DNA from: Aliiglaciecola lipolytica
GTDB lineage: Bacteria > Pseudomonadota > Gammaproteobacteria > Enterobacterales > Alteromonadaceae
Reading direction: 5' to 3'
Assembly (NCBI RefSeq): GCF_018860635.1
Contig: NZ_JAHKPT010000035.1
Span: 186,001-250,000, forward strand
Length of the DNA stretch: 64,000 nucleotides
Shown: positions 5,598-24,387 of the stretch, piece after piece
Numbering within the stretch: the stretch's first letter is position 1
How the letters are laid out: every line of letters starts with the position of its first letter
Notes under the pieces: model-generated
What the model saw: the letters and a program-made list of their open reading frames with translations, nothing else
What the model was told of the DNA's origin: nothing
The model's database searches: none
Program-made: the position numbers and the translations under genes

Positions 5598-7167
5598 TTT
5601 CGTACTTTTCCTTTACTTCTTTATTAAGCAAACTGCGGTCAACTTTACCATTTGGATTGCGTGGAAGCGACGTTCTGAATTCGACGTATTTGGGGTGCAT
5701 GAAATTGGGCATGGCCTTTTTGCACATCGCCAATATTTCTTTTTCGGAATGTTTTGCATTTTCTTTGAGTACAAGCAATAACGTAATGGCTTGCCCCAGC
5801 TCAGAGTCCTTTACACCACTGGCTATGGCCTCAGCAATATCACTGGCTCCTTGATAACATGCCTCCTCAACTTCCATTGGGCTGACTCGGTAGCCCGAAG
5901 TTTTAATCATTTCATCTTTGCGCCCTACAAAGTACAGGAAGCCTTCATCATCTCGTTTAACCGTATCTCCTGACCAAACGGCCATTTCTTGCAATACTAA
6001 ACCGCCAAGCTGAGCGGGCACAGGTTTAAATCGTTCAGCTGTTTTAGCCGGATCGTTCCAGTAGCCTAGGCTGACATGAGGACCTCTGTGGACCAGTTCA
6101 CCGGGCTCATCGACATCACATTCAGTGCCATCCTCTCTAACAACCATTACCTCTGCATTAGGAATGGCTTTACCCATGGAGCCGATTTTGTCATCCACTA
6201 AAGCAGGATCCAAATAAGTACTACGAAAGGCTTCAGTCAAGCCATACATCAAGTAAGGTTTTGCATTGGGGAATGTTGCGCGAATCGAGGTTAGGGTTAC
6301 CTGCGGCATAGCACCACCGGAATTGGTGAAATAGCGTAAATTTTCGGTTGCTTCTGTTGTCCATTTAGCTTTCATTAATTGTTGCCATAGTGGCGGCACA
6401 GCTGCTAGACCGGTGACTTGATGTTGCGCCATTGCTTTCACAACATCACCTGCCAAAAAGTAGTCCATTAGCACTACGGTTGCACCACACAACAATCCAG
6501 TAGTAATTTGGCTTAGTCCATAATCAAAACTCAAAGGTAGCAGTGCTAAAAGCACATCTGATTGATCATTTTCTAAGTATTCGGCGACGCTAATTGCCCC
6601 TACAACAATATTGCGATGAGACAACACAACCCCTTTGGGTCTGCCAGTGCTGCCTGATGTATACAAGATGGCAGCCATGTCATTGTCGGTGCGATGTACA
6701 TGTTTCAACGCTTGAATTGGTAAATCTGAGAGTAACGAAAAAGACACGCCATCAATGCTAAACGCGGGTAGTTTGTCGGTGAGTATTACTTGTTGTAGAG
6801 CAGGGCAGTTGGATAATACCGGTTCAAGAGATTTAAGTCTGTCACTGCTAGTAATCAGAATTTTGACATCACAGTCATTTAGGATGTGTCGAACTTGCGG
6901 CCCTTTTAAAACCGAATTCACTGGAACGAACACACCGTTTGCGCGACTAATTGCGAATAAACTTACGATAGTCTCAGGCAATTTGGGTAGGAAAACCGCG
7001 ACCCGATCGTGCCGTTCTACCCCGATAGATTGAAGACCACAGGCCAAATTCAAAACATTATTTGCAAGTTCTTCATAAGTCATTTTCGTTTGTTTGAAAA
7101 TTAACGCAGACTTTTGAGCATGCTGTTTAGCTGATTCCGATACTAACTCATCAAAAAACGTTACCAT
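5590..7167 (-). CDS. Acyl-CoA ligase (AMP-forming), exosortase A system-associated
   Basis: 525 residues of the ANL adenylating superfamily. The P-loop-like motif AAILYTSGSTGRPKGV (about residues 166-181), YGLTEAFRSTY, the SGDTVKRDDEGFLYFVGRKDEMIKTSG hinge and the C-terminal catalytic lysine region NPNGKVDR are all present, so the enzyme looks active. It is expected to adenylate a carboxylate and pass it to CoA or, more likely here, to the acyl carrier protein encoded divergently at 7302. First gene of the minus-strand set and overlapping the decarboxylase by 8 nt. The exosortase A association is family knowledge; the acyl substrate is not known. Confidence 0.85.
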   Translation of the reverse strand: MVTFFDELVSESAKQHAQKSALIFKQTKMTYEELANNVLNLACGLQSIGVERHDRVAVFLPKLPETIVSLFAISRANGVFVPVNSVLKGPQVRHILNDCDVKILITSSDRLKSLEPVLSNCPALQQVILTDKLPAFSIDGVSFSLLSDLPIQALKHVHRTDNDMAAILYTSGSTGRPKGVVLSHRNIVVGAISVAEYLENDQSDVLLALLPLSFDYGLSQITTGLLCGATVVLMDYFLAGDVVKAMAQHQVTGLAAVPPLWQQLMKAKWTTEATENLRYFTNSGGAMPQVTLTSIRATFPNAKPYLMYGLTEAFRSTYLDPALVDDKIGSMGKAIPNAEVMVVREDGTECDVDEPGELVHRGPHVSLGYWNDPAKTAERFKPVPAQLGGLVLQEMAVWSGDTVKRDDEGFLYFVGRKDEMIKTSGYRVSPMEVEEACYQGASDIAEAIASGVKDSELGQAITLLLVLKENAKHSEKEILAMCKKAMPNFMHPKYVEFRTSLPRNPNGKVDRSLLNKEVKEKYENV

Positions 7168-7244
7168 TTTTAATACTTATCTCTTGTTTATGGGTTGCAA
7201 CTATTTCTTATTACTTTAAATAATGGAACAATACATTAACGGAT

Positions 7245-7265
7245 GATAGAGATTAATGCTCTATC
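7245..7265. promoter_or_regulatory. Inverted repeat between divergent acyl-CoA ligase and ACP genes
   Basis: A perfect 7-bp inverted repeat (GATAGAG, 7-nt spacer, CTCTATC) lies in the 134-nt divergent intergenic region, 36 nt before the ACP start. It could be an operator shared by both transcripts or a 5'-leader hairpin. No known regulator consensus is recognised. Confidence 0.35.
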
Positions 7266-7301
7266 TAGCGAAAAAATTATAATAATACAGGTACTAAGAG
7301 T

Positions 7302-7544
7302 ATGAATACAGCTGCGTCTGTGAAAGAAATATTAATTGATGTTTTACAATTATCCAGTGATGTTGAATTTGATGAAGAAACTCCCCTGTTAGGCGCAATC
7401 CCTGAATTTGATTCAATGGCGGTAGTAACAGTGTTAACGTCGATAGAAGACACTTTTGGTGTTGAGGTCGATGATGATGAAATAAGCGCTGATATATTCG
7501 AGACATTTGGTGCCTTGTGCGGATATGTAGAAACCAAAGTCTAG
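7302..7544 (+). CDS. Acyl carrier protein (exosortase-associated locus)
   Basis: 80-residue acidic carrier protein. The phosphopantetheine attachment serine is S38 in the motif EFDSMAVV, equivalent to the DSL motif of standard ACPs, and the helix pattern of an ACP surrounds it. It is divergent from the acyl-CoA ligase and 25 nt before wecB, so it links the ligase/decarboxylase pair to the polysaccharide precursor genes. Probable role: carrying the activated acyl or aminoacyl group on its phosphopantetheine arm during decoration of the polysaccharide. It is not the fatty-acid AcpP, judging by context and motif. Confidence 0.85.
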   Translation: MNTAASVKEILIDVLQLSSDVEFDEETPLLGAIPEFDSMAVVTVLTSIEDTFGVEVDDDEISADIFETFGALCGYVETKV

Positions 7545-7569
7545 TTTACCTAATCAATAAAGAGTCATT

Positions 7570-8694
7570 ATGAAATATCAAAAAATTATGTTGGTGTTTG
7601 GGACCCGTCCTGAAGCGATAAAGATGGCGCCATTAGCAATTGAGCTTAAAAAACATAGCCAGTTAGATGTGTCAGTTTGTGTGACCGCACAACATCGTCA
7701 AATGCTTGATCAAGTATTGTCGCTTTTTGAACTGACACCAGACTTTGATTTAGATTTAATGCAACCTGGGCAAGATTTATACGACATTACCACTCGGGCA
7801 TTGTTGGGATTACGGGATGTTTTCAGTGAAGCCAAACCAGACTTAATTTTAGTTCATGGTGATACCACAACCACTTTTGCAGCATCCTTAGCTGCATTTT
7901 ATCAACGTATACCTGTGGGTCATGTGGAAGCTGGGCTTCGCACCGGTGATATCTATAGTCCTTGGCCTGAAGAGATTAACCGCAAATTGACCGGTGCCTT
8001 AACCAAACTGCATTTCGCACCCACGCCAAAAGCTGAAGCTAATTTGTTGGTGGAGAACATATCTAAAGATTCTGTATTTGTCACAGGCAATACTGTCATA
8101 GACGCGCTCATTCAGGTGGAAAATAAAATAGCCACTAATACAGCATTGAATAGTGAACTTGCCAGTCGATTTGAGTTTTTGGATGCAAATAAAAAGCTCA
8201 TTCTCGTCACCGGCCATCGTCGCGAGAGTTTTGGAGATGGCTTTGAGAATATATGTAGGGCGTTAAAAACCTTAGCTGAGCAAGAAAACGTACAGGTACT
8301 TTATCCTGTGCATTTAAATCCTAATGTACAAGAGCCGGTCAATCGTTTGTTAGCAAATACGCCAGACGTATTTCTAATTGATCCGCAAGATTACCTTCCT
8401 TTTGTGTACCTAATGAGCCGAGCTCACATTATTCTTACCGATTCTGGTGGCGTGCAAGAAGAAGCGCCCTCTATTGGTAAGCCTGTATTGGTAATGCGCA
8501 ACACAACCGAAAGACCAGAAGCAGTTGAAGCCGGTACGGTTAAATTGGTTGGTACGGATTACGATAAAATAGTTGAAAATGCGTTTGCGCTGTTAAATGA
8601 TGAGAAAGCTTATCAGGCAATGTCTTTCGCCCATAATCCTTATGGAGATGGCAAAGCATGTCAACGAATAGCGGATTTAATTATAAATAACTAA
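7570..8694 (+). CDS. wecB: UDP-N-acetylglucosamine 2-epimerase (non-hydrolysing)
   Basis: 374 residues, the usual length. It interconverts UDP-GlcNAc and UDP-ManNAc in the cytoplasm. Recognised by the start [14 protein letters not shown], the [17 protein letters not shown] and [10 protein letters not shown] motifs, [10 protein letters not shown], and [21 protein letters not shown] near residue 290. It lies 25 nt after the ACP gene and 9 nt before wecC, forming one operon that yields UDP-ManNAcA. Here it most likely serves the exopolysaccharide rather than enterobacterial common antigen, since no other wec gene is nearby. Confidence 0.93.
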
Positions 8695-8703
8695 GGGAAA
8701 AAC

Positions 8704-9945
8704 ATGGCATTTGCTAAAGTTTCAGTTATTGGTTTGGGGTATATTGGTTTGCCCACTGCCGCAGTCATCGCTTCTCGTGGTGTAGAAGTGATTGGTATTG
8801 ATGTCTCTGAAAAGGCTGTTGATACAATTAATCAAGGCAAGGTACATATTGTTGAACCTGATTTAGACATGGTTGTTCAAGCTGCTGTGACTATGGGGAA
8901 ACTAAGAGCCTCCCTCACACCTGAACCAGCTGACGCTTTTATGATAGCCGTCCCTACACCTTTTAAAGAAGGTAAAAAACCCGATTTAAGTTTTATTGAA
9001 AAAGCGGCTAATGCCATTGCTCCGGTATTGGAAAAAGGTAATTTAATTGTATTAGAGTCAACGTCTCCTGTAGGCGCTACTGAAAAATTGACTGCTTGGT
9101 TACAAGAACTTCGTCCAGATTTGCACTTCCCCGGACACAGTAGCCAAGAGCCTGATATGTTTGTGGCACATTGTCCTGAACGAGTACTCCCTGGGCGTGT
9201 GTTAGAAGAGTTGGTATCAAATGACCGTATTATCGGTGGTATGTCCGCGGAATGCAGTGACAAAGCCATTGAGCTTTACGATGTGTTTGTACGTGGGAAC
9301 TGTTTGAAAACCACCGCTCGCACTGCAGAAATGGCCAAACTCACTGAAAATAGCTTCCGCGATGTAAACATTGCCTTTGCAAATGAGTTATCGATGATAT
9401 GTGATGAATTGCATATCAATGTATGGGACTTAATTGCATTAGCTAACCGTCATCCAAGGGTTAATATATTGACGCCAGGTCCTGGTGTTGGTGGGCACTG
9501 TATAGCTGTAGACCCTTGGTTTATCGTTGACTCGGCTCCCGAAACAGCAAGAATTATTCGTACTGCTAGAGAAGTTAACGACGGCAAGCCAGGCTTTGTT
9601 ATTGGCAAAGTTCAAAAAGCTGCTGACGAATTTAAACGACCTGTAATTGCCTGTTTAGGATTGGCATTCAAACCTGATATTGACGATTTGCGTGAAAGTC
9701 CTGCTTTAGATATTACTCTCCGTTTAGCGCAGATGGGATTGGGCAAAGTGCTTGCAGTTGAACCTAATATCCATGCATTGCCGGATAAATTAGTTGCTGC
9801 GGGTATTGAATTGTTACCCATTGAAACAGCTCTGGAGCGAGCTAATATAGTGGTTGTATTGGTTAACCATAAGCAGTTTAAAGGCCTTGATAAAACCCAT
9901 TTAAATACTAAAGTTCTGATAGATTCCAGTGGGCTTATTGCCTAG
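8704..9945 (+). CDS. wecC: UDP-N-acetyl-D-mannosamine dehydrogenase
   Basis: 413 residues of the UDP-glucose/GDP-mannose dehydrogenase family. It oxidises UDP-ManNAc to UDP-ManNAcA using two NAD+. Visible are the N-terminal Rossmann motif VIGLGYIGLPTAAV, the ESTSPVGATE segment, the catalytic cysteine in GVGGHCIAVDPWF and the C-terminal NAD/UDP-binding motif LGLAFKPDIDDLRESPA. Pairing with the epimerase upstream (9-nt gap) identifies the substrate as the mannosamine sugar, which the sequence alone would leave less certain. A hairpin (about 9979-10001) follows in the intergenic region without a clear T tract. Confidence 0.9.
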   Translation: MAFAKVSVIGLGYIGLPTAAVIASRGVEVIGIDVSEKAVDTINQGKVHIVEPDLDMVVQAAVTMGKLRASLTPEPADAFMIAVPTPFKEGKKPDLSFIEKAANAIAPVLEKGNLIVLESTSPVGATEKLTAWLQELRPDLHFPGHSSQEPDMFVAHCPERVLPGRVLEELVSNDRIIGGMSAECSDKAIELYDVFVRGNCLKTTARTAEMAKLTENSFRDVNIAFANELSMICDELHINVWDLIALANRHPRVNILTPGPGVGGHCIAVDPWFIVDSAPETARIIRTAREVNDGKPGFVIGKVQKAADEFKRPVIACLGLAFKPDIDDLRESPALDITLRLAQMGLGKVLAVEPNIHALPDKLVAAGIELLPIETALERANIVVVLVNHKQFKGLDKTHLNTKVLIDSSGLIA

Positions 9946-10039
9946 TTGTTGAGCTATTTCAATGATAAAATCATCATAGATAGGCCCTATTCGGGCCCAT
10001 CTAATTCCTAAATTTCATACCAACTTTAAAGAGAAACAT

Positions 10040-12706
10040 ATGTGTTCAGTTAAAAAATACGGAGTATTGCTTGTTGTTCTGGTAATGATGGGGTGTAGTC
10101 AAAAAACACCTTCCGAATACATCGATGAAGCGGAAAAAGCGATTTTACAAAATGACACCGAAAGTGCAGTAATCGTACTCAAGAATGCATTGTCATCAGA
10201 TCCTAAAAACTTAAGAGCAAGATTTTTATTAGGCTCGGTATATTTTAAACGGGGTAATTCGAACTCTGCGGAAAAAGAACTAAAGATAGCTTTTGAAGGA
10301 GGGTACTTTAAAAATGAAGTTTTACCTCTTTATTTAGGTACGCTCAATTTTTTACAGCGAGATGACGAAATAATTCAAGTGGTAGAGCGTTTAACTGGGC
10401 TCACTAGCGAGACTGAAGCGATCGCTCAGGTATATAAAGGCTTAGCACTATTTAGAAAAAATGAAGTTTCGCGGGCAAAACTAGCTATAAAGCGAGCCTC
10501 TGAACTTTATCCTAATTCATCCTATAGTCGTTTAGGAAGGGCTCATCACGCACTAAACGATGGTGAAGTCACTGATGCACTAATCATTCTTGAAGAGTTA
10601 CTAGCTGAAGACCCGAAATTTATGGAAGCGGTGTTGCTGCAGGGACAATTGAGCATGCAGCAACGGGACTATGCAACTGCGATTAAAGACTTCACTGAAT
10701 ATGTTGAGCAGAAACCTGGTGATGCACAGGGTAATTTTTTGCTTATCGATGCATTGTTGCGAAACGAGCAATACGATAAAGCAGAATCACTTACAGTTGA
10801 TTTACTTAAAAAGCTCCCAGATAACCCACAGCTAAACGAATTTAGGGGAATCGTTGAATTCAATAAAAAAGAGTACTCTGCTGCGAAAACATCCATGGAA
10901 AAGGCTATTTCAGCGGGCTCTAATTCACCCACATCACGACTTATTGCAGGTGTTTCATCTTATAATTTACAGAAGCTAGAGCAAGCTCACAACCATTTAG
11001 CTGCAGTACAAAATGTCCTTCCAGATTCACATCCTGCAAAAAGGCTTTTCGCAGAAATCCAATTGCGCTTAGGCTATAGCACTGATGCTGCGCAAACTTT
11101 AGGTGGTATGGGAAGTTATGATCTGAATGATGTTACTTTGTTTACCCAAGCTGGTTTCGATCTAATAAAAAGTGGAGATGATTCCAAAGCGCGAAAAATG
11201 TTGGAATTGGCTAAAAAAACCGAGCCAACTAACGCAGAAGAGTTAACCCGTGTTGGTATTCTAAAATTATCTCTTAAAGATGATTCAGGAAAAGAAAATT
11301 TAATAACGGCCATAGAACTATCTCCTGAAATGGAAACAGCACGTTTGGTTTTAGCTCAAGCATATGTGAGTGAAGGCGAATATGAATTAGCGGTTGGCGT
11401 TGCAAAAAATTGGATTGCGTTTGCACCAGAACAAATAACCGCCTACAACCTTTTGGCTGAAATTTATGAAGTGTCTGAACAAAATCAACTAGCAGAGCAA
11501 ACTCATAATGAAATACTTAAACTTGCGCCTAATAATCCTGCGTCATTAAAATTTTTGGCTGAGTTAGCTAAACAAAATGGAAATGAAGATAAGGCACTTA
11601 GTCTTCTTAAAACAGCTGCGCAGAATAATCCAGAGTATGTTCAAGGTTCATTTGATTATTTTATTGAAGCTTCACGACAAGGCAAAGATGAACAATCGCA
11701 AGCATTGGATTTAATTAAGTCCATGTATGAAAAGCAGCCAGATGATTTAATGAAGCAACTCAATTATGCTCGTGCACTGGTATTTAATGTTGAACCACAA
11801 AAAGCGCTAAGTATTTTAGAGAATATAAAGCCCGCTAAGGATATGCCTCTTTTCTTTTGGAAAGCTCAAGCTGATAGTTATTTAGCGCTTAATAAACCAA
11901 CAGATGCTTTGAATGTTTATTCTCGTTGGCAACAACTTGAACCAAAAAGAAGAGATCCTTGGACGGGAGCGATCTATATCAATGACGGCCTGAGAGATTT
12001 CACCGGTGCATTAGATACCGTCAAACGAGCATTAGGGTATCATCAAGATGATCCTGAATTAAAAGTAATGGAAATACACTATAGTTTAATGAACGGTAAC
12101 GTTTTAGTCGCCAAAAGGTTGATGAATAGCCTGCCAGAACAAATTAAGTCGATGGTGACAGTGAAAGGCATTAATGGCCAAATACTCTTTGCAGAAGGCA
12201 AAATTAAGGAATCGTTGCCGTTATTAGAAGAGTCTTATAATGCGAGTTTAGATGGTCGCTTTGCAATTTTAATAGCGAAAGCGAAAGCTAATTTAGAGAA
12301 CGCTGACACAGCAATAGATTTTCTTGAAGAGCACTTAGCGAAACGTCCTAATGATGTCAATGTAAGGGGGCGTTTAGCTGAGAGTTACATGGATATCCAG
12401 CCAGAAAAAGCAATTGAACATTATGAAATGATTGTAAAGTTCTTACCAGAGAACATTATTGCATTGAACAATCTTGGATGGCTTTATACTCAAGCCGGTA
12501 ATAGTAAAAAGGCTGTTGACTATGCGCAAAAAGCAGTGGCTTTGCGTCCAGAGAACCCTAAGCTTTTAGACACCCTTGGCGTTGCATTACTGGAAGACGG
12601 ACAAATAAAGCGTGCTATTGAAGTGAGTAAAAAAGCATTTGATATTGAACCGAGTAATCAGAGTTATCGTATTCATTACGAGAATTCTCTCAAAGCAAAT
12701 CAATAA
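10040..12706 (+). CDS. prsT: TPR-repeat lipoprotein of the XrtA/PEP-CTERM system (PrsT-type)
   Basis: 888 residues. An N-terminal lipoprotein signal ends in the lipobox VMMGC, placing the lipid on Cys19. The remainder is a long array of tetratricopeptide repeats, for example the C-terminal unit starting ALNNLGWLYTQAGNSKKAVDYAQKAV. Length, lipobox and array match the PrsT family that accompanies exosortase A, and the very next gene is a PEP-CTERM protein. The protein is expected in the periplasm as a scaffold for polysaccharide assembly or export. Symbol assigned from family and context; the partner genes prsK and prsR and the exosortase itself are not in this window. Confidence 0.8.
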   Translation: MCSVKKYGVLLVVLVMMGCSQKTPSEYIDEAEKAILQNDTESAVIVLKNALSSDPKNLRARFLLGSVYFKRGNSNSAEKELKIAFEGGYFKNEVLPLYLGTLNFLQRDDEIIQVVERLTGLTSETEAIAQVYKGLALFRKNEVSRAKLAIKRASELYPNSSYSRLGRAHHALNDGEVTDALIILEELLAEDPKFMEAVLLQGQLSMQQRDYATAIKDFTEYVEQKPGDAQGNFLLIDALLRNEQYDKAESLTVDLLKKLPDNPQLNEFRGIVEFNKKEYSAAKTSMEKAISAGSNSPTSRLIAGVSSYNLQKLEQAHNHLAAVQNVLPDSHPAKRLFAEIQLRLGYSTDAAQTLGGMGSYDLNDVTLFTQAGFDLIKSGDDSKARKMLELAKKTEPTNAEELTRVGILKLSLKDDSGKENLITAIELSPEMETARLVLAQAYVSEGEYELAVGVAKNWIAFAPEQITAYNLLAEIYEVSEQNQLAEQTHNEILKLAPNNPASLKFLAELAKQNGNEDKALSLLKTAAQNNPEYVQGSFDYFIEASRQGKDEQSQALDLIKSMYEKQPDDLMKQLNYARALVFNVEPQKALSILENIKPAKDMPLFFWKAQADSYLALNKPTDALNVYSRWQQLEPKRRDPWTGAIYINDGLRDFTGALDTVKRALGYHQDDPELKVMEIHYSLMNGNVLVAKRLMNSLPEQIKSMVTVKGINGQILFAEGKIKESLPLLEESYNASLDGRFAILIAKAKANLENADTAIDFLEEHLAKRPNDVNVRGRLAESYMDIQPEKAIEHYEMIVKFLPENIIALNNLGWLYTQAGNSKKAVDYAQKAVALRPENPKLLDTLGVALLEDGQIKRAIEVSKKAFDIEPSNQSYRIHYENSLKANQ

Positions 12707-14228: not shown

Positions 14229-15095
14229 TTAGCTAGGCTTCGATTTACCTACTGCTTTTTTAACCATTGGGAACATAATATATTTTTGGATAGGGTTTTT
14301 ATTACCCCAGGGGCGCCACGTTTTTTTCGCTTTATTTTTATATGCATCAACATGCCAACCCCAAGGAGCGTGCAGCACTTCCCCTCGTTTTAGCAGTACT
14401 TTCAACACATTTGAATTTAATACTCCTGCCGCCAACGAGATTCCCATTGGTGTTGAGGGAACTTTTCCTGCCCAAAAATCTACTTTGCTTTTATCAACTA
14501 GATAGCTCAATTGCAACATAGCTGGAGATAAGCCCATGATTAGATTGTAGAACTGGTCTTCAGGTTCTAAACCTTCTAAACAGAAATATTCTTCAAATGA
14601 CATTTTACCCGGCATGAAAACTAATACTGCAGTTCCCATTCCCATTGGAGCTGCAGTAATGCAAGGGATATTCTTTTCGTAACACCTCTTGAAAACCTTT
14701 CTGCGAATATCCATAGCAAAAATATCTAAACTATCAATATATAAATCTACACCGTCTAAAAAATCTTCGAGATTTTCGTCATTAATCCCTTTGTCAAAAT
14801 TCTTGACACTTGATTCAGGATTGATGTTTGCCAATATATCTTCCATAACTTTAGATTTTTCTTGTCCTAAAGTTTTCATTGAAGCACCAGCTTGGCGATT
14901 GAAGTTTACTAAATCGTACTGATCCATATCAGATATGTGGAAGTTACCTATGCCAAGCCTTGCGCAGACAATTGCGTGGTCTCCACCTACACCGCCTAAT
15001 CCGCCTACTGCAACCTTACTATGTCTGAGAACATCTTGTTCTGCTTCAGTCATCCAGCCAATATTACGTGAAAATGCTTCTTTATAGTCAAACAT
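14229..15095 (-). CDS. ThiF/MoeB/E1-like adenylyltransferase
   Basis: 288 residues. The nucleotide-binding motif VGGLGGVGGDHAIVCARLGIG is near residues 30-50, followed by the acidic DMDQYDLVNFNRQ stretch with the Asp and Arg used for ATP binding in E1-like enzymes. The family activates a C-terminal carboxylate or amino acid by adenylation. I chose ATG 15095 over an in-frame TTG at 15110 because a purine-rich GAGAG site precedes it. It lies 112 nt downstream of the exosortase-associated acyltransferase gene on the same strand, with a 6-bp hairpin (ACGGGA/TCCCGT, 15136-15158) between. ThiF-like genes beside such acyltransferases suggest a shared modification step; the substrate is unknown. Confidence 0.7.
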   Translation of the reverse strand: MFDYKEAFSRNIGWMTEAEQDVLRHSKVAVGGLGGVGGDHAIVCARLGIGNFHISDMDQYDLVNFNRQAGASMKTLGQEKSKVMEDILANINPESSVKNFDKGINDENLEDFLDGVDLYIDSLDIFAMDIRRKVFKRCYEKNIPCITAAPMGMGTAVLVFMPGKMSFEEYFCLEGLEPEDQFYNLIMGLSPAMLQLSYLVDKSKVDFWAGKVPSTPMGISLAAGVLNSNVLKVLLKRGEVLHAPWGWHVDAYKNKAKKTWRPWGNKNPIQKYIMFPMVKKAVGKSKPS

Positions 15096-15207
15096 AAATC
15101 TCGCTCTCAAAAGTAATTAGTGTCGTGGTCTATTAACGGGATATATCTAACTTCCCGTAATATCCTTGTATCGCCTATGGCTGTAATGCTTAGTCGCTAT
15201 CAATCAT

Positions 15208-15945
15208 CTATATTTGTGGGGCGAGTTCAGCTGTTATGTTGCGTAATAAGGCTTTAAAATCTTGTTTAAGGTTTTGTTCAACTGATTGAGGTTGAATATA
15301 AAATGGGGCTCGTTTCCCATGGTAATCGATTACCGGACCTATTTGTTCAAAAGGTAGTCCAACAAATCGCATACTTCTGGCTAACCTAGGCTCAACCATA
15401 ACGTAACAATGATGAATATTTTTATTCAGCAAAATTGCCGTGGCAGATAAATATAATCCAACTGCAATAAATGGAAAACAGCGCAATTCTGTTTCTGAAT
15501 ATATTTCTTTATTGATAACACCTAATGCTGCACCGTCGTAATTATCCATTTTCCGGCGTCTAAATTCTAATGGAACCGCTAAACGTGATATTTCACAAAT
15601 ATCGTTCCTAGCAAAATTATCAGGAAAAAGTTCAGGTCGTTGAATTGCATCTTGACAGTAAAGTTCAATCGGTAATTTTTGACTATCATCTGCTGAGGTT
15701 ATTAACCTTACAGTGCCAGCATATTGTTTACTTGATTTATGTTGAATTAGGCAATGATAGGCATGGTCATCGAAATCATCAGTTTCGACTTTTTGAATGT
15801 TTTCAGGTTCAAAATGCAACTCTTCGCAGTACACCTGGTGACGAATACCAAAGGAGTGTTTTTTGTGCTGCTCAGACTCCGAAAATACAGGTTTTAAATA
15901 ATCGGAAAAATGACCCGAAATACTGTCCGCAGAAATTTCTGTCAT
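15208..15945 (-). CDS. PEP-CTERM/exosortase system-associated acyltransferase
   Basis: 245 residues of an N-acyl amino acid synthase-like GNAT fold. Typical stretches are FGIRHQVYCEELHFEP at the start, ARNDICEISRLAVPLEFRRRK in the core, and NIHHCYVMVEPRLARSMRFVGLPFEQIGP near the C terminus. The family occurs beside exosortase systems and resembles autoinducer synthases and the FeeM long-chain N-acyl amino acid synthase. It probably joins an acyl-ACP chain to an amine. A good ribosome site (AAAGGAAAG) precedes ATG 15945. It is divergent from the MaoC-like gene. Confidence 0.85.
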   Translation of the reverse strand: MTEISADSISGHFSDYLKPVFSESEQHKKHSFGIRHQVYCEELHFEPENIQKVETDDFDDHAYHCLIQHKSSKQYAGTVRLITSADDSQKLPIELYCQDAIQRPELFPDNFARNDICEISRLAVPLEFRRRKMDNYDGAALGVINKEIYSETELRCFPFIAVGLYLSATAILLNKNIHHCYVMVEPRLARSMRFVGLPFEQIGPVIDYHGKRAPFYIQPQSVEQNLKQDFKALLRNITAELAPQI

Positions 15946-18006: not shown

Positions 18007-18786
18007 ATGGATTTTATGTCTAGTTTGATTAAGCGTTTGTTTGTATTTGTTATTTTATTTTCAAATTGTCCAAGTTATGCCCACGACATTGTCGATATCG
18101 TAAAAGTGGCTAAACAATCAGTAGTCGGGATAGGCATATACGACCCAATTAAAGCCCCACAAACGAGTTTACACGGTACTGGTTTCGCGGTAGCTAATGG
18201 ACAGTATATAGTGACGAACAATCATGTTATTGCTAAACCGTTGGACGCCAATGCAAAACAAAAACGTGTGGTTCTAGCTGGTGTCGGACGTTATCCCAAA
18301 ATGTACGAGGCATATGTAGTCGAAGTTGATGAATTACATGATTTAGCGTTACTTCGAATTAGTAACAAATTAAAGCCTTTTCAACTAGCCGGAAGTAACT
18401 TGATAGCTGACGGCACTGAAGTGGCATTTACAGGATTTCCCATTGGGGCTGTTTTAGGGCTTTACCCGGCTACTCATCGCGGTATTATTGCCTCGTCAAC
18501 GCCGGTTATAGTGCCTACTGAACATTCTAGTCAATTAGATGCTAAAACATTGAGACGCTTAAGAGATCCGTATTTAGTCTATCAAATGGATGCCACGGCT
18601 TACCCTGGCAATAGCGGCAGTGCAGTTTATGAGGTGGACACCGGTAAAGTCGTAGCTGTTATCAATAAAGTGTTCGTAAAAGAAACAAAAGAGACTATTT
18701 TATCCGCGCCTAGTGGCATTACTTACTCAATACCTGTAAAATACGTCAGACAACTTTTAAGATCAGCTAACGTAGAAGTCGATTAG
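18007..18786 (+). CDS. Secreted trypsin-like serine protease
   Basis: 259 residues. A signal peptide covers about residues 1-25 (RLFVFVILFSNCPSYA). The chymotrypsin/DegP-type triad is complete: His73 in TNNHVIA, Asp112 in ELHDLALLRI, and Ser203 in YPGNSGSAV. There is no PDZ domain after the protease domain, so it is shorter than DegP or DegS. It probably works in the periplasm or outside. It is 145 nt upstream of the sigma-54 operon for a Tat-exported Cys-rich protein and could process that product or another surface protein; this is proximity only. ATG 18016 is an alternative start. Confidence 0.8.
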   Translation: MDFMSSLIKRLFVFVILFSNCPSYAHDIVDIVKVAKQSVVGIGIYDPIKAPQTSLHGTGFAVANGQYIVTNNHVIAKPLDANAKQKRVVLAGVGRYPKMYEAYVVEVDELHDLALLRISNKLKPFQLAGSNLIADGTEVAFTGFPIGAVLGLYPATHRGIIASSTPVIVPTEHSSQLDAKTLRRLRDPYLVYQMDATAYPGNSGSAVYEVDTGKVVAVINKVFVKETKETILSAPSGITYSIPVKYVRQLLRSANVEVD

Positions 18787-18856
18787 CTTGTCGAAAAAAT
18801 TTACACTACCACTATATTACATTAATTAAACATATATAAATCAATGGATTGTTGTC

Positions 18857-18874
18857 TTGGCGTGGTTTTTGCTT
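18857..18874 (+). promoter_or_regulatory. Sigma-54 promoter of the Tat-protein/HprK-related operon
   Basis: TTGGCGTGGTTTTTGCTT fits the RpoN consensus, with GG at 18859-18860 and GC at 18871-18872 separated by exactly 10 nt. The TGCTTTAAC after the -12 element is shared with the sigma-54 promoter of the PEP-CTERM gene. It lies 58 nt before the start codon of the Tat-exported protein. Confidence 0.8.
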
Positions 18875-18931
18875 TAACGATATCATTAAAGTTAATTGCG
18901 TTCAGAAGTCGCATAAAAAGGGTTTAAATCA

Positions 18932-19579
18932 ATGAATGAATTCGATAAGTCGTTTAAAAAGGATGTTTCTGCTGTGAACAAGCGCCGTAATTTTCTTAAG
19001 AAGTCGGCCACCGGAGCAGTGATTGTTAGCCTTCCAGCTAAATCAGTATGGGGAACTACCTGTAATGTGTCAGGTAATTTGTCAGGTAATTTGTCTACAA
19101 GTACCCATGAAAAAACATGTACTATTCCAGATTTGAATTATGGTTGCCGTCCTCAAAAATGGAAAGACTCAGACAGCAATTGTGATGACATGTTCGATAA
19201 GTTGAAGCGAATGAATCATGGTCGACACAGAAGGGACGACGATGATTGTAAAAAAGAAAGAGAAAAGTATAACGCTAGTATCGACGCAGTTAAAAGTTGC
19301 TCGCTAAATTTACCAAAAGAATTTTTCCGCTATAGCGATGATAGTTGTGGAAATCTATTGAGCGGCAACTGTGGCAGCAGCTATCAAAAGTTGGGCGCGG
19401 TATTTTTGAATGCGTGTTTTGGTTTTTATCCAGGTTATGAAGGTATCTCTCAAGCTGAAGACTTGTGCAAGGAAGTATTTGTTTACTTATACGTGAAAGA
19501 TAAAACCGGCTCTTTGGTAACCGATAATGAATTGGGTATGACTGACAACCATAGGTTAAGTAACTGGGAACCTTCCTAA
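18932..19579 (+). CDS. Tat-exported cysteine-rich protein, possible modified substrate
   Basis: 215 residues of no family I recognise. A twin-arginine signal is present: KRRNFLKK at residues 17-24, then a weak hydrophobic stretch SATGAVIVSLPAKSVWG. The mature part has ten cysteines (44, 63, 72, 84, 106, 123, 139, 147, 162, 179), an even number compatible with five disulfides or metal binding, plus a basic/acidic segment (KKEREK, HGRHRRDDDD). SGNL is repeated at 48-55 from a 12-bp tandem DNA repeat. It heads an operon with a PqqD-like protein, an HprK-related kinase and a nucleotidyltransferase, 14 nt ahead of the next gene, so it may be their substrate. Tat use implies folding or modification before export. 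Confidence 0.65.
   Translation: MNEFDKSFKKDVSAVNKRRNFLKKSATGAVIVSLPAKSVWGTTCNVSGNLSGNLSTSTHEKTCTIPDLNYGCRPQKWKDSDSNCDDMFDKLKRMNHGRHRRDDDDCKKEREKYNASIDAVKSCSLNLPKEFFRYSDDSCGNLLSGNCGSSYQKLGAVFLNACFGFYPGYEGISQAEDLCKEVFVYLYVKDKTGSLVTDNELGMTDNHRLSNWEPS
19070..19093 (+). repeat. 12-bp tandem repeat (two copies) inside the Tat-protein gene
   Basis: TCAGGTAATTTG occurs twice in a row, encoding Ser-Gly-Asn-Leu twice just after the signal peptide. Unit length is a multiple of three, so copy-number change would keep the frame. Confidence 0.7.
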
Positions 19580-19593
19580 GAAATTAAATAGAC

Positions 19594-19872
19594 GTGAGTT
19601 ACTATAGTCTCACTCCGGGTTCGCGGGTTTATCTTTTTGAAGATGGAAGCGGCATAGGGATTTATTCTGGTTACGATAGTAATACCTTTTTCATTAATTC
19701 TAGACAGTTAGAAAATGTCAAGAAGGTTGAACTCAATTTAGAGTTAACCTTCGATGCAAGTTTATTTCAATCCATTCTTGGACTAGATCAGTCTGAAGCA
19801 GAGTTCGTTTTCCACGATTTAGTTGAGAAGAAAGTTCTTCGGGAAGTAGTGGAGTTCGATGCAGATTCTTGA
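19594..19872 (+). CDS. PqqD-like protein of the HPr-rel-A system
   Basis: 92 residues from a GTG start. The predicted beta-rich N terminus and C-terminal helices (LFQSILGLDQSEAEFVFHDLVEKKVL) follow the PqqD layout, a winged-helix domain that in RiPP pathways acts as the RiPP recognition element binding a leader peptide. It overlaps the kinase gene by 14 nt, so translation is coupled. By family knowledge, PqqD-like proteins of this type accompany HprK-related kinase A. A role as adaptor that presents the Tat protein or another peptide to the kinase is inferred. Confidence 0.7.
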   Translation: MSYYSLTPGSRVYLFEDGSGIGIYSGYDSNTFFINSRQLENVKKVELNLELTFDASLFQSILGLDQSEAEFVFHDLVEKKVLREVVEFDADS

Positions 19873-20707
19873 CACAGGTCTTTACCGTTTTTCGTTAAAA
19901 TCAGATGTGAAACATGTTTCAACAGTTGCTAAGAGTTTGTACTCAGATTCCTGCGATTTAGACGGGCCTATCGACTTTTCAATCCGTCTCGTTTACGAGT
20001 CTTTATTGAGACGATTTATTAAACCGCAAATCAGTTTTTATTCAGATCAACATTCCCCCTTTAAACCTCTTCCAATATCTCAAGCTGCAGCTGTTCTTGA
20101 ATGGGGAATGAACTGGTGTATAGCAGCCCATGAATTTGAGCGCCTATTAATCCATTCAGCGGTTTTAGTTAAAGACGGTAAAGCCATTGTTTTTCCTGCG
20201 TTGCCAGGCTCAGGGAAAAGTACACTGACGGCTCATCTTGGATTATCTGGTTGGGATGTCTATTCAGATGAGATGGCAATAATTGATACCACGACATCTA
20301 AGGTTCACCCATGGTATCGACCTGTTTGTTTAAAAAACAACTCTATTGATCTTATCAAAAAGTGGCACCCAGAAGCATTTTTCACTCCCATCTGCAAAGA
20401 TACTCAAAAAGGCGATGTAGCACACCTTAAAGTACTGGAAAGAACTCAATATAGTCAATTTAAACCAGCCGAGATTGTCGCGGTCGTGTTTCCCAAGTAT
20501 TCCCCAGATTCAGAATTAACCATTTACCAATTAACACAATTGGAAGCTTTTAATACTTTGAGTAAGAATGCGTTTAACTATAATGTACTTGGTGGAACGG
20601 GGTTTGATACAGTTGCTAAGATAATTAAATCCTGCCGCCTTTTTGAAATTGAGTACAATGACTTAAATGAAGTCAATGAATTTCTCAAAGAAGATGTAAT
20701 CGGGTGA
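19859..20707 (+). CDS. HprK-related kinase A
   Basis: 282 residues. It has a Walker A loop PALPGSGKST (about 113-122), preceded by LLIHSAVLVKDGKAIVF, and the SDEMAII segment (136-142) with the acidic residues used by HPr kinase/phosphorylase for catalysis. It lacks the N-terminal HprK regulatory domain. Start ATG 19859 has GGAG 5 nt upstream and lies within the PqqD-like gene. HprK homologues without HPr occur in lasso-peptide clusters, where they phosphorylate a peptide serine; here they are in a sigma-54 operon with a nucleotidyltransferase. The phosphoacceptor is unknown. The classical PTS regulatory role is unlikely. Confidence 0.82.
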   Translation: MQILDTGLYRFSLKSDVKHVSTVAKSLYSDSCDLDGPIDFSIRLVYESLLRRFIKPQISFYSDQHSPFKPLPISQAAAVLEWGMNWCIAAHEFERLLIHSAVLVKDGKAIVFPALPGSGKSTLTAHLGLSGWDVYSDEMAIIDTTTSKVHPWYRPVCLKNNSIDLIKKWHPEAFFTPICKDTQKGDVAHLKVLERTQYSQFKPAEIVAVVFPKYSPDSELTIYQLTQLEAFNTLSKNAFNYNVLGGTGFDTVAKIIKSCRLFEIEYNDLNEVNEFLKEDVIG

Positions 20708-20711
20708 TAAT

Positions 20712-21839
20712 GTGTTGTTGAATACAAAATTGCTTTATCAGATTTTATTAAACCCAAGTCGAGGGTTAAATCTAGCTTTGACGGATTGGCAAAATGTTAT
20801 TTTTATCTTACGCGAAGGTAAGTTGTTAGCTAGTTTATATCATGCAGCAAAACGCGATGGTTGCTACGACGCTTATCCGCACTTTGTAAAACGTCATTTA
20901 TATTCTGCTTACGTCTATGCAAACCGTCAGGCTCAACAAATCTTTTTCGAGGCAAACGAATTTCGCTTATTGCTTGAGCAAGTAGGTATTACTGCAGTGT
21001 TCTTGAAAGGAGCGGGATATACTCTACGAAATAGTTTGAATAGTTACGGCAGAGTCTGTTCTGATATTGACGTTTTGGTGAATAAGAATGACCTTACGGC
21101 TGCTGAAGCCCATGTTAAAAAAAATCGCTGGCAATCAGAAACCCTTAATGACTATGACGAAAAGTACTATCGAGATTGGGCTCATGAAATACCACCATTG
21201 ATTCATATAAACCGAGCAACTGTGGTGGATATGCATCATAATTTATACCCACCGATTAGTGGCCGTGCAATTAATATCAAGAAATTTATTTCTTCACGCC
21301 AAAAAATGCAATCTGGTTGCTTTGTACTGGAACCAGCAACCACTGTTATGCATAGCATTATTCATATGTTTGCCAATGAAGATAGCAGCAGCTGGATGCG
21401 TGATCTTTATGATATTATTCTTCTGATTAAAGAAAATGAGAGTGTTGAGTTCTGGAAAGTTTTAATGGAATCTTCTCAACAAACTGATTTTGATTTTGAG
21501 TTTGAATTTGTTTGTTGTATAAAGGCTTTGCAACATTATTCCAACCTGAATATACCAACAGATGTCGTCAGCTACATAAATGATTATAGACTGACCAAAT
21601 TGCAACGCTGGCTTATTCAAAATGCTATATTGCCATCAATTGCCCCCGAACATAGTTTAGTTATGTCATCCAAAATTAAATGGGCTAAAACAATCGTTTA
21701 TTTTCGTGGCCACTGGATCAAGATGCCATTTGCAGTACTTTGCAAACACTTTGCGTTTAAATCATTTTTTGCGATACGTGATCAGATTATGGGTAAACAT
21801 CATTTTGACCCCAAATTACCCCAAAATCCGAACTGGTAA
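20712..21839 (+). CDS. Nucleotidyltransferase family protein (NTP_transf_5-like)
   Basis: 375 residues from a GTG (or the following TTG) start, 4 nt after the kinase stop. The nucleotidyltransferase core is seen as VFLKGAGYTLR (97-107) and the metal-binding SDIDVLV (117-123). A downstream VDMHHNLYPP follows, as in the family of putative nucleotidyltransferases near lasso-peptide kinases. The C-terminal part is alpha-helical. It likely transfers a nucleotidyl group from an NTP to a protein or phosphorylated peptide, acting after the kinase. Last gene of the operon; 237 nt of non-coding DNA separate it from the next gene. Confidence 0.75.
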   Translation: MLLNTKLLYQILLNPSRGLNLALTDWQNVIFILREGKLLASLYHAAKRDGCYDAYPHFVKRHLYSAYVYANRQAQQIFFEANEFRLLLEQVGITAVFLKGAGYTLRNSLNSYGRVCSDIDVLVNKNDLTAAEAHVKKNRWQSETLNDYDEKYYRDWAHEIPPLIHINRATVVDMHHNLYPPISGRAINIKKFISSRQKMQSGCFVLEPATTVMHSIIHMFANEDSSSWMRDLYDIILLIKENESVEFWKVLMESSQQTDFDFEFEFVCCIKALQHYSNLNIPTDVVSYINDYRLTKLQRWLIQNAILPSIAPEHSLVMSSKIKWAKTIVYFRGHWIKMPFAVLCKHFAFKSFFAIRDQIMGKHHFDPKLPQNPNW

Positions 21840-22076: not shown

Positions 22077-23357
22077 TTGACGGAAAATATATATAAAAAG
22101 CGAATAGGCATCATTGGCTTAGGCTATGTTGGTTTGCCCCTAGCAGTGTCTTTTGGCAGAAAGTTTTCTACGCTGGGTTTTGATATTAACCAACAGCGTA
22201 TTGAAGAACTTAATCGAGGTGAAGATCACACCTTGGAAGTTTCTCCTGAAGAGTTAAAAAGCGTGACATCTTTGACGTTTTCATCTGAACCTGAAGACCT
22301 CTCTCAATGTGATTTTATTATTGTTACCGTGCCTACGCCAATTGATAAAAATCGTCAACCTGATCTGACCCCTTTGAAAAAAGCCAGTGAAATGATTGGT
22401 AAGGTGGTCAAATCTGGCGCTACTGTTATTTATGAGTCAACGGTATACCCTGGTGCGACTGAAGAAGTATGTATTCCGTTAATCGAAAAATATTCTGGTT
22501 TGAAGTTCAATCAAGATTTTTATGCAGGCTACAGCCCAGAGCGAATCAATCCAGGAGATAAAACCCATCGTCTGGAAAGCATTATTAAAGTCACCAGTGG
22601 TTCCACTCCTGAAATTGGTGATTTAGTCGATCAATTGTATCTCAGTATTATTGAAGCGGGCACACATAGGGCGTCTTCCATAAAAGTCGCCGAAGCGGCT
22701 AAAGTAATTGAAAACACCCAAAGAGATTTAAATATTGCGCTAATAAATGAGTTGGCAATGATATTCGAAAGGCTCGGTATTGACACTGAAGAGGTGTTAT
22801 TAGCCGCTGGTAGTAAATGGAACTTCTTGCCGTTTCGCCCCGGATTAGTGGGCGGACACTGTATTGGTGTTGACCCCTATTATTTGACCCATAAAGCCGA
22901 AGAGATTGGTTATCATCCTGAAGTCATTTTGGCGGGACGTCGCATTAACGACCAAATGGGCGAATATGTGGTCAGTCGTTTAGTGAAAAAAATGCTAAAT
23001 AAAAAAATCATGGTTAATGGCGCTAATGTGCTTCTTATGGGGATCACATTCAAAGAAAACTGCCCCGATATTCGCAATACTAAGGTGGTCGATATTGCCA
23101 CTGAGCTGGATAACTATCATGTGAATGTCGATATTTATGATCCTTGGGCCGAATCTGAAGAGGTTCAAGCTGAATATGGATTGAAATTAGTCAGTGAACC
23201 GGAAGTGGGAAAATATGACGCTATCATTGCGGCCGTTGCCCACCAAGAGTTCAAACAAATGTCGAGCCAAGAACTCCGTGCGCTAGGCAAAGACAATTGT
23301 GTTGTGTTTGACTTGAAATATATTATTGATAAAGAAATCGTTGATTTAAGACTTTAG
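22077..23357 (+). CDS. UDP-sugar dehydrogenase, TviB/WbpA-type
   Basis: 426 residues from a TTG start with a strong AGAGAGAGG site upstream. Rossmann motif [26 protein letters not shown], the catalytic cysteine in [13 protein letters not shown] and the second nucleotide-binding segment [18 protein letters not shown] are clear. This branch oxidises UDP-GlcNAc or UDP-GlcNAc-like sugars (TviB) or UDP-Glc to the 6-carboxylate. It is distinct from the wecC copy at 8704. It sits 10 nt before a C4-epimerase, the TviB-TviC arrangement, so the product is probably a UDP-(N-acetyl)galactosaminuronate or galacturonate. Substrate not decided. Confidence 0.83.
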
Positions 23358-23367
23358 GACAAAGTAA

Positions 23368-24387
23368 ATGAAAATTTTAGTAACTGGGGCTGCCGGTTTT
23401 ATTGGATCTCATGTAAGTTTGTATTTGCTTGAACGTGGTGATGAAGTAGTGGGGTTAGACAACCTCAATGATTATTATGACGTGAACCTCAAGCTAGATA
23501 GATTAAAAAGAGTAGAGCAGCATAAGAATAGCTACAATTTCACTTTTGTTAAAATGTCAGTGGAAGACAAAGAGGCTATGGCTGATTTGTTTGATGAACA
23601 TAAATTTGACAAAGTCGTACACCTAGCGGCACAAGCTGGTGTGCGTTATTCATTAGAAAATCCCCACGCTTATATTGATGCCAATATTGTTGGTTTTATG
23701 AATATATTAGAGGGTTGCAGACACAATAAAGTGAAACACTTAGTTTATGCTTCCTCTAGTTCAGTTTATGGGGCTAACGAGTCTATGCCTTTCTCCGTGC
23801 ACGATAACGTTGACCATCCAGTATCGTTATACGCGGCAAGTAAAAAAGCCAACGAACTGATGGCTCATACTTATAGTCATTTATTCAACTTGCCTACTAC
23901 TGGCTTGCGTTTCTTTACCGTTTACGGTCCTTGGGGACGTCCAGATATGGCGTTATTCTTATTTACTAAAGCGATTTTAGAAGATAAACCGATTAAAGTG
24001 TTTAATTACGGTAACCATAAACGCGATTTCACCTACATTGATGACATTGTGGAAGGTATCATTCGTACCCTTGATCATACGGCTGAATCTAACCCAGATT
24101 GGTCAGGTAAGAATCCTGATCCAGGCACAAGTAAAGCCCCTTGGCGAGTGTACAATATCGGTAACCAATCACCGGTCCAGTTGATGGAATATATTGAGAC
24201 CTTGGAAGAAAACCTGGGTAAAACCGCAGAGAAAGAGCTACTACCGCTGCAAATGGGTGACGTTCCTGATACCTACGCAGATGTTGAAGCTTTGGTTCGA
24301 GATGTTGATTACCGTCCACAAACGACAATTCAAACCGGGATTAAAAACTTTGTAGGTTGGTATAAAGATTACTTCAACGTGAATTAA
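23368..24387 (+). CDS. NAD-dependent UDP-uronate 4-epimerase (CapI/LspL-like)
   Basis: 339 residues of the extended SDR family. The Gly-rich NAD motif [11 protein letters not shown] starts at about residue 6, DNLNDYYD at 31-38 is typical of UDP-glucuronate epimerases, and the catalytic SSSVYG and YAASKKANE motifs are present. The stretch [16 protein letters not shown] is the usual CapI/LspL sugar-binding region. It converts a UDP-uronic acid between gluco and galacto forms. The upstream dehydrogenase supplies that acid, so the pair feeds an acidic sugar into the exopolysaccharide. A bidirectional terminator follows. Confidence 0.85.

Follow-up and report, generated by a model that had tools for sequence, protein, structure and literature searches.

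A conserved four-gene cassette of Aliiglaciecola lipolytica joins a Tat-signal protein to a PqqD-like protein, an HprK-related kinase, and a nucleotidyltransferase behind an apparent PrsR-type promoter

We analyzed a four-gene operon within a 64,000-nucleotide stretch of the Aliiglaciecola lipolytica genome (contig NZ_JAHKPT010000035.1), the whole of which is called the window here. The operon encodes, in order, a protein with a twin-arginine translocation (Tat) signal, a small PqqD-like protein, an HprK-related kinase, and a nucleotidyltransferase of the NTP_transf_5 family (Table 1). The four open reading frames (ORFs) are on the plus strand with spacings of 14, -14, and 4 nt, so the gene order and gaps given in the original prediction for this DNA were borne out and a single operon is supported. 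A twin-arginine segment, KRRNFLKK, and ten Cys residues were likewise present in the first protein, to which it had attributed a Tat signal and ten cysteines, and its kinase and nucleotidyltransferase families were upheld by matches well over cut-off to TIGR04352 and PF14907. As judged by the sequence comparisons described below, the operon is a conserved cassette comprising a Tat-signal protein, a protein resembling PqqD and the recognition element (RRE) of ribosomally synthesized and post-translationally modified peptides (RiPPs), HprK-related kinase A, and NTP_transf_5.

Table 1. Features of the cassette, its upstream region, and its neighbors (positions are those of the window)
Feature	Position	Strand	Basis
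PrsR box (motif 1), TGTCGAAAAAATTTACA	18789..18805	+	box plus sigma-54 pattern; motif described in PMC1569441
Sigma-54 (-24/-12) promoter, TGGCGTGGTTTTTGCT	18858..18873	+	52 nt downstream of box
Tat-signal protein, 215 aa, 10 Cys, proposed substrate	18932..19579	+	family member beside 132/141 kinases
Twin-arginine pair R18-R19, export signal	18983..18988	+	kept in 78/79 aligned proteins
SGxxSGNxS (S47, S51, S55), candidate recognition or modification segment after signal	19070..19096	+	79-protein alignment
GCRPQKWK, degenerate (S/T)PG(Y/F)WK motif	19142..19165	+	alignment
LNA motif (L159-N160-A161), same domain as (S/T)PG(Y/F)WK	19406..19414	+	N160 in 75/79
PqqD-like / RiPP recognition element protein, 92 aa	19594..19872	+	AlphaFold fold; homologues matching TIGR04353
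HprK-related kinase A (TIGR04352)	19859..20707	+	314.7 bits, cut-off 200
NTP_transf_5 nucleotidyltransferase (PF14907)	20712..21839	+	119.1 bits, cut-off 31.2
PEP-CTERM/exosortase system-associated acyltransferase (TIGR03694)	15208..15945	-	238.9 bits, cut-off 111.95
Secreted trypsin-like protease, partly linked	18007..18786	+	PF13365
TviB-type UDP-GlcNAc 6-dehydrogenase and nucleotide-sugar epimerase	22077..24387	+	model scan

The TIGR04352 kinase was found over cut-off in 34 of 98 related genomes. In each of these 34 relatives, a match to the Tat profile A3 (79 aligned Tat proteins, with rows L105, L147, and L152 dropped) lay beside the kinase, in one genome (G041) only at E 0.0019. Elsewhere in the 98 relatives, the profile gave one strong match (<E 1e-14), to a domain of a 750-aa secreted protein of genome G073, and five weak matches away from the kinase (E 1.9e-5 or worse). 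The wider survey comprised 141 distinct loci, 34 from the related genomes, 78 from named GTDB genomes, and 29 from a phylum sample; two of 143 loci had been dropped, L139 because the kinase was cut by the contig end and L129 because its kinase was the same as that of L054. A Tat-family ORF was located on the same strand and at most 4 kb from the kinase in 132 of the 141. This recurrence rules out a chance gene neighborhood and bears favorably on the original prediction, which hung on the Tat protein accompanying the trio in other genomes. Of the nine loci without a same-strand Tat ORF, L134 has its Tat ORF on the other strand, and the rest are eight phylum-sample loci with short flanks. When larger stretches around these eight were read, four showed a same-strand ORF with a Tat signal (profile scores marginal), a fifth showed one on the other strand, and three showed none. 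A Tat-like ORF was also found in 15 of 17 further distant loci (for L209 the only sign was a marginal profile score) but not in L215 or L216. A small ORF precedes the kinase in 131 of the 141 loci, 114 of these ORFs being joined by an iterated PqqD-like profile, and the nucleotidyltransferase was recognized downstream of the kinase in 125.

The cassette, which is found in many proteobacteria, was also seen on a plasmid. Three of its genes, those for the Tat protein, kinase, and nucleotidyltransferase, lie on the 176-kb pVa1 of Vibrio alfacsensis (L231, NZ_CP032095.1), which suggests that the unit may be mobile; the kinase was matched in three V. alfacsensis plasmid records. One cassette looks broken (L082, G041:C34): its kinase reads as two overlapping fragments, and separate open frames match the signal and the body of the Tat protein.

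The two enzymes retain their active-site residues. Alignment of the kinase from 138 of the 141 loci, three being excluded by length, revealed H99, G117, G119, K120, S121, T122, D137, and E138 to be invariant. In the 114 nucleotidyltransferases that passed a score and length filter, K99, G100, and D120 are kept in all and D118 in 112. A PDB search with the kinase profile returned weak P-loop matches only, with HprK at E 0.088. For the small protein, we scanned three homologues from the same position in other cassettes, and all three matched TIGR04353. The 11 best PDB matches of the AlphaFold model of the 92-aa window protein (61 rows, mean pLDDT 77.2) are all PqqD/RRE proteins or proteins with a recognition domain of this type, namely PqqD (5sxy), leader-containing structures of a lasso peptide B1 protein (6jx3) and of TbiB1, PbtF, and the domain-bearing ThcOx and MccB; these matches were weak, the best at E 0.04 and none below 0.001. 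A peptide is the usual ligand of the PqqD/RRE fold.

The Tat protein is much the more variable partner. Over the same 33 loci, mean column identity was 17% in the Tat protein alignment against 41% in that of the kinase, as might be expected if the Tat protein behaved as a substrate. The family consensus consists of the Tat signal followed by CxxSGxxSGNxS, C..G(S/T)PG(Y/F)WK, and LNA. The best-kept residues of the mature part in the 79 aligned proteins are S47 (77), S51 (74), S55 (75), and N160 (Table 1), and the only widely kept Cys residues are C44 (66) and C63 (67). The ten cysteines that the original prediction had treated as a trait are confined, among the 34 related loci, to the window species and one close relative; the number ranges from 0 to 10 over these loci, and the counts together with the alignment rule out ten cysteines as a defining feature. 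The statement that the first protein has no known domain held, in that only sub-threshold Tat-signal models matched. TIGR01409 scored 13.4 bits in the NCBIfam scan of the window protein, below the cut-off of 16.7, and was matched by 11 of 33 family members (set A1; L082 was removed from A1 and A2) at E <= 0.1. Searched against Pfam and NCBIfam, these 33 gave only Tat-signal models in more than one member, the remaining matches being single and weak, and no PEP-CTERM signal (TIGR02595/PF07589) was matched by the window protein or, at E 0.1, listed for the 33. The AlphaFold model of the Tat protein (mean pLDDT 61.7) was too poor for a structure search, and a PDB sequence search with the Tat profile gave nothing useful.

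The two conserved parts of the mature protein have different distributions. The part spanning PG(Y/F)WK...LNA also terminates two secreted proteins that are not encoded in cassettes (G073, G368), and SGxxSGNxS is absent there. The larger secreted proteins that end in this domain outside cassettes lie at L219:1842-4094 and L223; the former had no NCBIfam match, and its sole Pfam match was weak and elsewhere in the protein. In a Sphingomonas-like clade (L232) and two families without exosortase, the Tat protein has a different mature part, often with an ending resembling (S/T)C(W/F)xS(L/F). The signal region alone is recognizably shared, by eye, with the Tat proteins of distant clades. L093, L100, and L162 each have two Tat-family genes near a single kinase (in L093, one of the two is on the other strand), as would be expected of a single set of enzymes acting on more than one substrate.

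The original prediction had also placed a sigma-54 promoter before the operon. The site is present, ending 58 nt upstream of the ATG at 18932; that prediction contained neither the upstream box nor the PEP-CTERM/PrsR-type class to which we now assign it. According to PMC1569441, PEP-CTERM genes, whose phylogenetic profile pointed its authors to PrsK and PrsR, are preceded by a sigma-54 site and, separated from it by 32-92 nt (mean 62.8), an upstream 17-nt motif ending in TTTACA. PMC9850573 describes a PEP-CTERM gene shown to be RpoN-dependent, with putative -24/-12 motifs TGGCAC/CTGCTT. The window has the same arrangement, namely a 17-nt motif ending in TTTACA, a 52-nt spacer, a sigma-54 site, and then the gene. 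We scored 126 Tat upstream regions, two of 128 having been dropped for too little upstream DNA, using for the 17-nt motif a palindromic guess made after viewing the window copy and a combined element score of at least 25. The combined box and sigma-54 element was found upstream of 80 of the 126 Tat genes. Shuffled sequences would lead one to expect 3.8 such cases, and other stretches of these loci 3.0. Among the groups, the element precedes 30 of 34 related and 48 of 71 GTDB genes. The spacers in the 70 best elements cluster at 50-53, 62-64, 72-78, 82-85, and 92-97 nt, with one at 44. Neighboring clusters differ by about one turn of the helix, the pattern expected of helical phasing, and the scoring imposes no such spacing; common ancestry may account for part of the clustering.

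A strict form of the pattern, drawn from the scored Tat upstream sites, gave seven matches in the 5.03-Mb genome of the window species and none in the reversed control. Six of the seven boxes precede PEP-CTERM genes (TIGR02595 over cut-off in 6/6, some narrowly), and the seventh precedes the Tat gene. Across the 98 genomes there were 245 matches, versus 8 in the control (summed by eye). The pattern was present in 58 of 62 PrsR-positive genomes compared to 2 of 36 PrsR-negative genomes, the latter two being incomplete assemblies. The sigma-54 site thus appears to belong with a PrsR box of the PEP-CTERM regulon, an assignment newly recognized here.

The distribution of the kinase also points to this setting. 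PrsR and exosortase were each found in all 34 kinase-positive relatives, versus 62 and 61, respectively, of the 98 overall. PrsR was encoded within the fetched stretch at 13 of the 34 related loci and, at E <1e-100, at 6 of the 78 GTDB loci. In the phylum sample, exosortase was found in 32 of 61 kinase-bearing genomes versus 50 of 337 others (Fisher p ~1e-9, with kinship ignored). Two loci were scanned for flanking exopolysaccharide genes, L193, where a cassette from an exosortase-less family is flanked by the XrtA-type exopolysaccharide genes TIGR03088 and TIGR03108, and L198, where a lone kinase, in a genome with exosortase and with no recognized Tat gene or nucleotidyltransferase beside it, is flanked by TIGR03019 and TIGR03087. 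From these two loci, the link of the cassette seems to be to the type of exopolysaccharide system rather than to exosortase alone.

Genes around the cassette were less constant. The PEP-CTERM/exosortase system-associated acyltransferase gene of the window is adjoined by a gene for a ThiF-family protein (14229-15110), and relatives of the two proteins are encoded near the cassette in 20 and 16, respectively, of the 34 related loci. The trypsin-like protease, which the original prediction had offered as a processing neighbor, is linked in 22 of the 34 related loci, yet among the other loci the fetched stretch contained it in only 23 of 78, in varying places and on either strand; these counts do not support it as a fixed component. 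Of the downstream sugar genes, tviB is linked in 13 of 34 related and 14 of 78 other loci, and the epimerase gene in 18 and 21.

The trio has already been named the "HPr-rel-A system" in NCBIfam, by name only and without function. The window cassette shares with that system the TIGR04352 kinase and also the nucleotidyltransferase, which is annotated beside the kinase in Vibrio and Sphingomonas plasmids and whose place as a defining member is our own reading. TIGR04353 ("HPr-rel-A system PqqD family peptide chaperone") was matched in the three homologous cassettes scanned and not by the 92-aa window protein. A Sphingomonas plasmid record labels the cassette genes in this way. What differs is the Tat partner, which in the 33 members scanned had no common family beyond the Tat signal and is a "hypothetical protein" in both the Vibrio and the Sphingomonas plasmid records. 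Searches by name, accession, motif, and system terms, in which subscription journals were mostly not covered, found no literature evidently on the Tat partner or the cassette, and no paper that we found links the cassette to the PrsR box or to exopolysaccharide.

PMC8498205 describes phosphorylated or phosphoglycosylated lasso peptides (paeninodin, pseudomycoidin) in which an HPr-kinase homologue, a nucleotidyltransferase, and the PqqD-like B1 protein act on a ribosomal precursor. These three protein types resemble the cassette trio; the partner in the cassette is, in contrast, a protein of about 200 aa with a Tat signal. No asparagine-synthetase-like lasso cyclase or B2 protease was found among the 11 proteins scanned between 14229 and 24387, in agreement with the original prediction of a lasso-like trio lacking a cyclase. 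The genome does hold a second kinase and nucleotidyltransferase cluster, among exopolysaccharide genes (L083, G000:C36, reverse strand, approximately 5720-10312), which encodes in order a PrsR-boxed PEP-CTERM protein, a 53-aa lasso-leader peptide, an HprK-like kinase, a WcaJ-type sugar transferase, and a PF14907 nucleotidyltransferase; the peptide matched the lasso-type leader model NF033521 at 21.3 bits (cut-off 19). With the PEP-CTERM/exosortase and PrsK/PrsR system, the cassette shares the box and sigma-54 element described in PMC1569441 and the same genomes among the 98 relatives. It differs in that the Tat protein has no PEP-CTERM signal and that some genomes with the kinase lack an exosortase.

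Taken together, the PrsR/sigma-54-type promoter, the consistent four-protein composition, and the kept active-site residues are what the genomes display; we infer from them the binding, phosphorylation, nucleotidylation, and export of the Tat protein and its role in the matrix. We propose that the operon combines a substrate with its modifiers and belongs to the exopolysaccharide/PEP-CTERM (exosortase) lifestyle, and consider the chances that this reading is right, mechanism steps included, to be about even. On firing of PrsK/PrsR, the four cassette proteins would be made together. The RRE-like protein would grip the N-terminal part of the Tat protein, whose export signal would double as a RiPP-type leader. 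The kinase would then phosphorylate a hydroxyl residue of the Tat protein, the first candidate in the clade of the window being a serine of SGxxSGNxS, and the nucleotidyltransferase would add a nucleotidyl or sugar unit to that phosphate. Once folded and modified, the Tat protein would leave via the Tat pathway and join the matrix alongside PEP-CTERM proteins.

Several observations weigh against this proposal. The 92-aa window protein itself matched no NCBIfam/PqqD model and had a sub-threshold Pfam match only, and the PqqD-like ORF in L060, L063, and L077 looks shortened or degenerate, with apparently little beyond the strand part. To these must be added the loci where the small ORF was missing or did not join the profile, those where the nucleotidyltransferase was not recognized, and L197, L198, and L199, where no Tat-like ORF was found even in the larger stretches (the L197 contig ends 1.4 kb upstream). 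At E 1e-5, the A3 profile gave matches in just 17 of the 61 phylum-sample genomes that have the kinase, probably due to distant Tat proteins sharing little beyond the signal. The mature parts of the distant-clade Tat proteins are not recognizably similar and SGxxSGNxS was not seen in them, so this motif cannot be the universal target and was rejected as such. The combined promoter element was carried by only 2 of 21 distant upstream regions. Finally, 29 of the 61 phylum-sample kinase genomes, 19 of them from two families, are without exosortase, and a strict requirement for exosortase was rejected phylum-wide.

Other targets for the trio have to be considered. It might act on a different exopolysaccharide component, such as a glycan precursor or a PEP-CTERM protein, with the Tat protein serving as partner or scaffold; the flanking exopolysaccharide genes of L193 and L198 would fit this, as would the merely putative substrate of the nucleotidyltransferase. 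We nonetheless think this unlikely, since nearly every kinase has the Tat protein beside it, far more often than tviB or the epimerase, and the PqqD/RRE fold normally binds peptides. That same fold, as modeled for the 92-aa protein, would also suit a RiPP-like pathway in which the Tat protein is a long precursor from which the adjoining secreted protease frees a small modified product, as would the protease linkage among the related loci and the presence in the same genome of the L083 lasso-leader peptide with an HprK-like kinase and PF14907 enzyme. The sparse and irregular occurrence of the protease elsewhere argues against such processing, however, as does the C-terminal half of the Tat protein, which keeps its LNA motif as a folded domain would and shares it with other secreted proteins, and we regard a freed small product as very improbable.

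The HprK ancestry of the kinase raises the alternative of HPr-type signaling, in which the kinase would sense metabolites and reversibly phosphorylate a cytoplasmic protein that tunes exopolysaccharide synthesis, the Tat protein being merely co-regulated. This would leave the RRE-like protein, the nucleotidyltransferase, and the near-constant Tat partner unexplained, and we give it little more than a slender chance. Returning to modification of the Tat protein, a broader form of the idea is that a RiPP-style machine tailors whole Tat-exported proteins, with the Tat signal doubling as leader, a phospho-nucleotidyl or phospho-sugar group placed on the cargo in the cytoplasm, and deposition in the matrix switched by PrsR. 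The sharing of the signal region alone across clades hints at this broader form, which we advance tentatively and would expect to fail sooner than to hold.

The analysis suggests that the cassette may decorate a biofilm-matrix protein before its export in a way that has not been described. A trio that had a name and no function is thereby placed in a biological setting and given a promoter and a partner. Should the Tat protein prove to be the substrate, phosphorylation and nucleotidylation guided by a leader would reach beyond small peptides to matrix proteins that are exported. The PEP-CTERM regulon would in that case include a second class of exported protein, one without an exosortase signal.

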